A stretch of 50,014 nucleotides of DNA, from positions 1 to 50,014 of the forward strand of contig JAUYSH010000085.1 in assembly GCA_030696455.1 (NCBI GenBank), written 5' to 3'. Shown piece by piece: positions 47,776 to 50,014 of this stretch (the first letter of the stretch is position 1; every line of letters begins with the position of its first letter). This stretch comes from Elusimicrobiota bacterium (lineage in GTDB: Bacteria > Elusimicrobiota > Elusimicrobia > UBA1565 > UBA9628). Below the pieces are notes generated by a model, which worked only from the letters and a program-made list of their open reading frames with translations, was not told the origin of the DNA and did no database searches. The translations under genes were made by a program, and so were the position numbers.

Positions 47776-48285
47776 ATGGAAAAGCGGAGCTTTGAGACGA
47801 TCATCCGCGCCCTGGATAAAGCCGGCGCGCGCTACCTGATCGTCGGCGGAGTGGCGGTGGTGGCCCACGGCTATGTCCGCTTCACGGTCGATTTGGATGT
47901 TTTCCTGGATCTCGAACCCGAAAATTTGAAGACGGCCCTTTCCGTCCTGTCGGGGCTCGGCTACAGGCCCCGCGCGCCCGTCAACATCGCCGATTTCGCG
48001 GATCCGGCCATCCGCCGGGTTTGGATCGAAGAAAAAGGAATGAAGGTTTTCTCCCTATCCAGCTCCGAACATCCCTCGACCGAGATCGACATTTTTTCCG
48101 AAGCCCCGTTTGAATTTTCCGCAGCTCATGCTCAAGCCGTTCGCTTGGAAGTTTGTCCCGGCGTGGCGGCCGCCTTCGTCGACCTCGATCGCCTCATCGC
48201 CATGAAAAAACGAGCGGGCAGGCCGAAGGACCTTCTGGATGTCGACGAGTTGAATGCCTTGCGCAAGGAGCCCTCCGGTGACTGA
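47776..48285 (+). CDS. MNT-fold nucleotidyltransferase, second copy
   Basis: 169 residues. ALDKAGARYLIVGGVAVVAHGYVR followed by TVDLDVFLDLE gives the GG...hG...T.DlDv nucleotidyltransferase signature. STEIDIFSEAPFEF adds the third acidic residue, and LIAMKKRAGRPKDLLDVDEL is the standard C-terminal end. It differs from the copy at 9404 in sequence but matches the same fold. It overlaps a 69-residue protein downstream by eight bases. Possible toxin or regulatory enzyme of a two-gene module; target unknown. The gene is less GC-rich in places than purA. Confidence 0.78.
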   Translation: MEKRSFETIIRALDKAGARYLIVGGVAVVAHGYVRFTVDLDVFLDLEPENLKTALSVLSGLGYRPRAPVNIADFADPAIRRVWIEEKGMKVFSLSSSEHPSTEIDIFSEAPFEFSAAHAQAVRLEVCPGVAAAFVDLDRLIAMKKRAGRPKDLLDVDELNALRKEPSGD

Positions 48286-48529: not shown

Positions 48530-48557
48530 TTGACAATAGAACGGCGCCTGCTATACT
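48530..48557 (+). promoter_or_regulatory. Strong sigma-70-like promoter for the riboswitch transcript
   Basis: TTGACA (48530-48535), 16-base spacer, TATACT (48552-48557). The transcript would begin near 48564, just before the c-di-GMP-I motif. Confidence 0.8.
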
Positions 48558-48569
48558 CCGAAGGTCGGA

Positions 48570-48660
48570 CGTTGGAGCGATAAACCGGCAAACCGTTCGC
48601 GAGGGCGGGGCGCAAAGCGAAGGGCCTCGAAGAGTCCCGAGGTCGCCTGGCTACCGAAAC
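48570..48660 (+). ncRNA. c-di-GMP-I (GEMM) riboswitch
   Basis: The aptamer core is clear: GGCAAACC (48587-48594), then the P2 hairpin CCGTTC / GGGCGG (48593-48598, 48603-48608) closed by the GNRA loop GCGA. CGCAAAGC (48611-48618), a P3 hairpin CCTCG / CGAGG (48625-48629, 48638-48642) and GGCTACCG (48649-48656) follow. Compared with the Vibrio Vc2 aptamer, the ligand-contact bases are kept: G at the G20 position (48588), A at A47 (48615) and C at C92 (48654). G20 favours c-di-GMP over the cGAMP-binding variant, which has A. The outer boundaries are approximate. The ORF begins six bases after the motif, so control is probably translational or by termination within the leader. Confidence 0.8.
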
Positions 48661-48665
48661 CAAAC

Positions 48666-49226
48666 ATGCTGATTAAAGGCGTGCGCGCACGATTTCGCTC
48701 GGCCCTTGCTTACCATGGACGGGACAGAGGGGTTCCATGGTCGGTGGGGCCGGGCCTGTTTTTGGCCCTGGCGCTGCTCGCGCCGGCGGGCCGCGCGGAG
48801 ACCGCGGCCGGCCTCGACGCGCAAGGGGTCGATCCCCGGGCCGCGGTCGAGAACAAGTGGGGCCTCGACGTCCGCGACGCGGCGGGCCGCCCCGTCAGCC
48901 GCGAGCAGGTCCTGTCCGACCTGAAGGGCGCCGCGGTCAAGCGCGCGGCCGACAACTCGTTTTCCAGCAATCTGCCCAGGGCTCGGGCCGTGTTGGCGGC
49001 GCTCGAGTTGGTCAACGATTTCGCCGACGCCTTCCGCATGGCCGCGGCCGGCTTCGCCTTGGCCAAAATCCTTCCCGGCCTGCCGGGGGGGGCGCCGAAG
49101 ATCTCGGTGCTCTGGCTGCTCCTCGCGGCCTGCGTGCCCATGACTTTCGCCTTCTGTTGTCGTCCCTCGACCGTCTTGACGCTTTCCCGTTCCCGCCAAA
49201 GCTCCATCGAAGTCCTCCGCTGTTAA
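48666..49226 (+). CDS. Exported/membrane protein under c-di-GMP riboswitch control
   Basis: 186 residues from the ATG at 48666. A basic N-terminus (KGVRARFRSALAYHGRDR) precedes a hydrophobic signal (VGPGLFLALALLAPAGRAE), so export is likely. The mature part has ENKWGLDVRDAAGRPVSREQ and ends with a hydrophobic helix (ISVLWLLLAACVPMTFAFCC) and a short basic tail. The motif-like DVRDAAGRPVS is not recognised. No ribosome site is visible before the ATG; a GTG further in (SVGPG) is an alternative start that would leave more leader for riboswitch control. By analogy with other c-di-GMP-I targets, a role in surface attachment, pili or matrix is plausible. Confidence 0.6.
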   Translation: MLIKGVRARFRSALAYHGRDRGVPWSVGPGLFLALALLAPAGRAETAAGLDAQGVDPRAAVENKWGLDVRDAAGRPVSREQVLSDLKGAAVKRAADNSFSSNLPRARAVLAALELVNDFADAFRMAAAGFALAKILPGLPGGAPKISVLWLLLAACVPMTFAFCCRPSTVLTLSRSRQSSIEVLRC

Positions 49227-49356: not shown

Positions 49357-50014
49357 ATGACCAGCCTTGGGTGGATTGCGTCTCCTTGTTGTGCGCGCAC
49401 GCGAAATAGCGCATTGCTCGTTGCGATGCTCTTTTTGGCGTGCGCCCTTTCTTATACGCGCGCGCACGCGGCGGCGGCGCCGCAGAAGCCCGCGCGCGCG
49501 AAGGCCGACCTGCGAGGCAGCGCCGCCGAGCGCCTGGAGGCGGCCGACGCCGCCCGCTTCGGCCGCGGTGCCCGTCCCGCGGCGGCCGAACTGGACGCGG
49601 CCGTCGCGCGCGAGGCCAATCCCCAGGTGCGCTACGGCCTGCTGCAGGCCCTGGCCGCCCAGGACCCCATCGCCGCCGTGCCGGTGCTGAGCCGCTCCCT
49701 GCGCTCGGACGCCTCCCCCATCGTGCGCGTGGCCGCCGCCCAGGAGCTGGGCCGGCTCGAGGACCCGGCGGCGGCCCGGGCGCTGGCTTCAGCGCTCGCG
49801 GGCGACGCGGACCTGGACGTGCGCCGCGCGGCGGCCGCCTCGCTGTCGGTGCACCGCTCGACCTCCGCCGCGGCCGCGTTGGCCGCAGCGGCCGTTCAGG
49901 CCGATCCCGGCGTGCGCCGGTTCGTGGCGCGAGCGTTGAGCCGTCATGACGGCGCGGGCGTCGAGGCGGCTCTGACCCGGCTCGCGGCCGATCCCGACCG
50001 CGCGGTCGCCGCCG
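49357..50014 (+). CDS. Exported HEAT-repeat protein (C-terminus beyond window edge)
   Basis: 219 residues visible, reading open to the edge. The N-terminus is basic and then hydrophobic (NSALLVAMLFLACALSYTRAHA), a probable signal peptide with a cut after AHA. From about residue 50 there are HEAT-like helical repeats of about 31 residues with the recurrent VRxAAAxxLG pattern (VRYGLLQALAAQDP, VRVAAAQELGRLEDP, VRRAAAASLSVHRS, VRRFVARALSRHDG). Such solenoids bind other proteins or act as bilin-lyase-like scaffolds; the partner here is unknown. It may be exposed in the periplasm. GAGGG lies shortly before the ATG. Confidence 0.75.
   Translation, partial: MTSLGWIASPCCARTRNSALLVAMLFLACALSYTRAHAAAAPQKPARAKADLRGSAAERLEAADAARFGRGARPAAAELDAAVAREANPQVRYGLLQALAAQDPIAAVPVLSRSLRSDASPIVRVAAAQELGRLEDPAAARALASALAGDADLDVRRAAAASLSVHRSTSAAAALAAAAVQADPGVRRFVARALSRHDGAGVEAALTRLAADPDRAVAA

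Follow-up and report, generated by a model that had tools for sequence, protein, structure and literature searches.

A c-di-GMP riboswitch leader in Elusimicrobiota carries a conserved terminator-like hairpin that is probably a small RNA in its own right

Near the end of the window, a 50,014-nucleotide stretch of Elusimicrobiota DNA analyzed here as a whole, a promoter is followed by a GEMM-I aptamer, a terminator-like hairpin and the gene of an exported protein of no recognized family, termed here the LRC protein. The features of this locus are as follows.

48530..48557, + strand: extended sigma-70-type promoter, TTGACA-16-TGc-TATACT, from a consensus scan
48571..48575, + strand: 5′ strand of P1, GUUGG, pairing with CCAAAC at 48660-48665 (sequence reading)
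48577..48658, + strand: GEMM-I aptamer core, from the RF01051 match and orthologous aptamers in relatives
48660..48665, + strand: 3′ strand of P1, CCAAAC, abutting the ATG at 48666 (sequence reading)
48666..49226, + strand: ORF of the exported LRC protein, with homologues in relatives
48694..48765, + strand: conserved 22-bp terminator-like hairpin, bulged at column 14, from covariation, covariance-model search and folding
48720..48733, + strand: conserved loop CGGGACAGAGGGGT, from an alignment of 23 sequences
48757..48763, + strand: intrinsic-terminator T tract TGTTTTT (sequence reading; a T-rich tract is kept in relatives)
49357..50014, + strand: exported HEAT-repeat protein, continuing beyond the window end (Pfam HEAT_2, E 5e-17)

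The aptamer is the sole Rfam match in the whole window. Cmscan aligned the complete RF01051 model (c-di-GMP-I, GEMM-I; positions 1-87) to 48577-48658 on the + strand with 53.6 bits and E 8.8e-8, against a gathering score of 35. An earlier sequence-only reading had proposed a GEMM-I riboswitch at this locus, with a covariance-model search as its check, and the proposal is borne out. The ligand contacts that it regarded as retained are all present in the alignment, at positions that correspond, in Vc2 numbering, to G20 (~48587), A47 (~48614) and C92 (~48654); the same letters were checked in the orthologous aptamers. The GNRA tetraloop is kept as GCGA, and both strands of the 11-nt receptor (the CUAA and UAUG columns) are deleted. 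We treat docking of these two elements as an accessory feature outside the Rfam threshold, so that the deletion is no bar to RF01051 membership; another, helical receptor for GCGA is possible. P1 comprises 5 bp, with UUGG/CCAA-type pairing recurrent in most members of the genus. The variant class c-di-GMP-I-GGC (RF03167) was rejected: it needs G47, whereas the window and its relatives carry A47 (GCAAAG), and the window aptamer scores 51.9 against a gathering score of 59. Judged from the alignment, RF03167 scoring in relatives does not amount to a GGC binding site, A47 being kept there. GEMM-I riboswitches are common; by its alignment this one is a new RF01051 member, and one more of the kind is ordinary. 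In the class-level relatives L100 and L101, AGCAAAAC in the aptamer replaces the GGCAAAC of others and places A at the G20 position, the letter associated with cGAMP-type GEMM-I RNAs.

Upstream, the promoter boxes (TTGACA 48530-48535, a 16-nt spacer, TGc and TATACT 48552-48557) match 11 of 12 consensus positions, in agreement with the consensus-like promoter described before. This is the only such match in the kilobase, with 0.1 expected by chance from shuffles, and transcription is predicted to start at ~48564.

The first ATG of the LRC ORF, at 48666, lies 7 nt past the last base of the aptamer. A signal peptide is present, as is the motif RD..RPVS, and the protein ends in VLRC or PLRC; as previously judged, the exported target is not recognizable, with no match in Pfam or NCBIfam, and its AlphaFold2 model (mean pLDDT 63.9) was too poor for a fold search. 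In the homologue alignment the last cysteine is nearly invariant despite a highly variable middle, and since the VLRC/PLRC codons vary synonymously, this constraint acts on the protein. In genomes without the remaining protein, matches to the ORF cover the first 40-odd codons alone, because the ORF start overlaps the conserved hairpin DNA. Caution over the start codon was well placed: from the sequence, ATG 48666, which reads through the hairpin, and GTG 48744 are both possible. Within the genus, an open frame runs from ATG 48666 via the hairpin into the signal peptide; it is kept across members and survives a 9-nt deletion in one of them. In other lineages the LRC start lies mostly after the hairpin (inside it in L098 and L099), and in some a short upstream ORF enters the hairpin. 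The next exported gene, which was suggested to share the regulon, recurs as well: a similar HEAT-repeat ORF lies downstream in several relatives, and the gene possibly belongs to the LRC operon. The genome has two further GEMM-I RNAs. The ORF immediately after one of them resembles TPR-repeat outer-membrane proteins, and the other RNA precedes a CsgG/FlgO protein. These contexts fit the c-di-GMP-controlled surface lifestyle envisaged for the target, and an envelope or surface-lifestyle theme for c-di-GMP control is reasonable.

The most unusual part of the locus lies just beyond the interval assigned to the riboswitch by the sequence-only reading. Its account of aptamer, promoter and target stands, but it missed a conserved hairpin that overlaps the ORF start and is solitary in GEMM-free relatives. 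This 72-nt element consists of a bulged 22-bp stem, a 14-nt loop and a T tract. Across 23 sequences, 95.7% of paired cells in the stem are standard pairs, compared with 29-52% in slid controls, and all columns of the loop (CGGGAYAGAGGGGU) are invariant except two. Nine pairs are altered on both sides, with 41 both-side changes versus 15.9 in shuffles. Because G-U pairs are numerous and changes are compensatory, the constraint acts on RNA; a DNA-level or coding constraint is ruled out by the same features and by the stand-alone copies described below, which have no conserved reading frame. The isolated hairpin folds better than its shuffles (z -2.86), and the whole window leader is no stabler than shuffles (z -0.01). 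Searching the hairpin against 4227 Rfam families gave no gathering-score match, and the hits below that score all had E above 6, as expected by chance (cut-off E 10, short stretch); the hairpin in relatives likewise had no Rfam match, and the literature covered yielded nothing relevant on the loop sequence or on RNA motifs of Elusimicrobia.

A covariance model, R1, was built from the hairpin alignment and used for genome searches. It matched the element in its own genome with E 1.8e-23 and in 35 of 58 relatives, with one convincing copy each and two in genome G009. Of 341 genomes across the phylum, 42 gave a match, although the last few of these are generic terminators. When 84,980 species genomes were scanned with a pattern, 33 records came back, nearly all bearing Elusimicrobia(ota) MAG names; 32 of them are from Elusimicrobiota or from unclassified MAGs that correspond to loci known from relatives. 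Spread outside Elusimicrobiota was rejected, the lone Spirulina match (14 bits over 24 positions) being taken as chance, and a scan of viral contigs found no hairpin. The element ranges over one Elusimicrobiota order plus three class-level outliers, essentially once per genome, usually in the conserved neighborhood topA-xerC-ORF-purA-(NTase)-element. At 47776-48285, between purA and the riboswitch, the window encodes a weak AbiEii/DUF6036-type nucleotidyltransferase found in some relatives only.

The hairpin occurs in two settings. About 30 loci have the order promoter, GEMM-I aptamer, hairpin and LRC gene. At nine further loci, in eight genomes, the hairpin stands alone: no aptamer precedes it, the LRC gene is also absent, and at the eight loci with readable upstream DNA the promoter leads directly into the hairpin. 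A GEMM-I match is absent genome-wide in all eight genomes. All 37 readable orthologous promoters, of both forms, have the -10 box TATACT and 36 have the 16-nt spacer; between the -10 box and the hairpin lie 116-202 nt when the aptamer is present versus 16-67 nt when it is absent. Nearly every stand-alone copy has the identical loop. Well-supported branches of a neighboring-protein tree force at least four changes of aptamer presence, and repeated loss is the simplest reading because all outgroup families have the aptamer. Aptamer-free genomes contain 2-4 GGDEF domains, compared with mostly 5-9 in aptamer-bearing family members (a count that left out the stand-alone genome G233); total loss of c-di-GMP signaling is thereby ruled out.

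At two stand-alone loci, L066 and L102, the next gene is convergent, and the hairpin therefore has no leader role there. At the other seven (L079, L084, L085, L090, L096, L070 and L077) a CHASE2-cyclase gene comes next in the same orientation, and a leader role retains some residual likelihood. These CHASE2-domain nucleotidyl cyclase genes often have their own TAGAAT-like (-10-like) box just before the start codon. L066 (G009:C35:4878-4949) is the second copy in its genome; it comprises a promoter and hairpin on a separate contig, together with a short leader hairpin of its own, and is evidence that such a unit can undergo duplication as a gene. The aptamer-LRC unit of G026 ends in a plain terminator with the loop missing, so cis termination and loop conservation are separable.

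Lineages without GEMM or LRC still keep the promoter and the hairpin, which argues that the hairpin has a role of its own; it is probably a separate small RNA that also serves as leader terminator of the c-di-GMP riboswitch operon. As the best explanation of the whole we favor, with modest assurance, a terminated leader of aptamer and hairpin, an LRC mRNA made by read-through, and a hairpin with its own function in trans. The strong constitutive-type promoter would drive a leader in which the GEMM-I aptamer precedes the conserved hairpin. Much of the transcript would end at the hairpin, releasing an RNA of ~200 nt that holds both, and read-through would produce the mRNA of the exported LRC protein and perhaps of the HEAT protein. 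The hairpin, whose 14-nt loop is fixed, would be functional by itself, likely in trans, with the loop offered to a partner. A search of 38 genomes for antisense targets of the loop returned the element itself and chance-level matches, similar to a reversed-pattern control. A CsrA-titrating or Hfq-dependent small RNA was rejected, since none of 58 genomes encodes Hfq and two encode CsrA.

The order of aptamer, terminator and gene is also the usual one for an ordinary transcriptional c-di-GMP riboswitch, in which the ligand would decide whether the terminator hairpin or an antiterminator involving the aptamer forms, and termination would be the only role of the hairpin. Within the genus, the 5′ arm of the hairpin can indeed pair with the P2/P3 strands of the aptamer; the hairpin is absent from the predicted best fold of some members, and the best fold predicted for the full leader in the window is an alternative one. 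However, such an antiterminator is not conserved. Pairing of each aptamer with its own arm averages -25.0 kcal/mol versus -23.6 kcal/mol for swapped partners, aptamer-arm shuffles score similarly for most rows, and overall a conserved aptamer/hairpin-arm antiterminator does not rise above swapped or shuffled controls. Most predicted folds contain the hairpin, and the invariant loop and the stand-alone copies would be left unexplained, making this account unlikely.

Within the favored reading of a terminated leader whose hairpin has its own function, c-di-GMP would in this genus most likely act at the AUG abutting P1. Bound ligand would stabilize P1 and block initiation, leaving the hairpin undisturbed by the ribosome and free to terminate; in its absence, ribosomes would translate through the hairpin. 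Such control of initiation, with translation then disrupting the hairpin, is proposed because the AUG touches P1 and the ORF crosses the terminator in this genus, and it is possible though on the doubtful side. It is not the ancestral mechanism, as most LRC genes outside the genus start after the hairpin. The hairpin's own function is the stronger of the two claims.

A stand-alone hairpin might instead be a relic of the deletion of aptamer and gene, kept solely as an insulating terminator between the purA side and the next gene. It does lie downstream of purA, in the same place in most genomes, and would terminate towards the next gene. Yet a fixed loop is unnecessary for termination and is near-identical in the stand-alone copies, a strong promoter is retained that insulation does not need, and G009 holds its second promoter-plus-hairpin copy on another contig; we consider this explanation quite improbable. 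Least credible of all is a reservoir in which an abundant terminated aptamer-hairpin RNA buffers c-di-GMP: a near-consensus promoter and an early terminator do predict an abundant short RNA and a massively expressed GEMM RNA provides precedent (PMC3627812), but the aptamer form precedes a protein gene and the hairpin persists without the aptamer.

That precedent, the 445-nt merRNA known only from Bdellovibrio (Karunker et al. 2013), is the nearest one for a GEMM RNA as the product itself. As in merRNA, the GEMM aptamer here probably belongs to a short RNA driven by a strong promoter; the part retained alone is the hairpin here and the aptamer in merRNA. A merRNA-like noncoding GEMM RNA was rejected for this element, because the LRC ORF follows the aptamer forms and the forms lacking the ORF have no aptamer. 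Compared with RF01051 riboswitches, the locus shares the above-threshold full match, G20/A47/C92, the GNRA tetraloop and a position as an envelope-gene leader; it differs in the missing 11-nt receptor, the start codon abutting P1 and the non-Rfam hairpin with its conserved loop. In the Bc1 c-di-GMP-I riboswitch of Bacillus thuringiensis the aptamer likewise precedes intrinsic terminators, in a long terminator-bearing expression platform (PMC11218506); the part of its abstract considered mentions neither a conserved hairpin loop nor stand-alone terminator copies. Unlike in usual riboswitch leaders, the conserved-loop terminator here also exists alone.

What is unusual is that a terminator hairpin with a fixed loop has outlived both riboswitch and gene, with its promoter kept, in several lineages. 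This retention is a natural experiment pointing to hairpin function, and suggests that a riboswitch expression platform and a small RNA can be one molecule. Tentatively, and with slightly more hesitation than confidence, we regard the element as a candidate for an undescribed Elusimicrobiota small RNA family, defined by a strong promoter and a 22-bp hairpin whose 14-nt loop is invariant, and acting in trans free of Hfq and CsrA; in most genomes, where it bears the aptamer, it would be a second-messenger-sensing small RNA whose terminator doubles as the switch of an exported-protein operon. The element offers a concrete way into RNA regulation of an uncultured group without Hfq and mostly without CsrA. 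It also draws attention to a family of exported proteins that is linked to c-di-GMP and has a conserved cysteine at the C terminus. In many loci a GTCAAG-N9-CTTGAC inverted repeat recurs upstream of the -35 box and overlaps the -35 region; it might bind a regulator.
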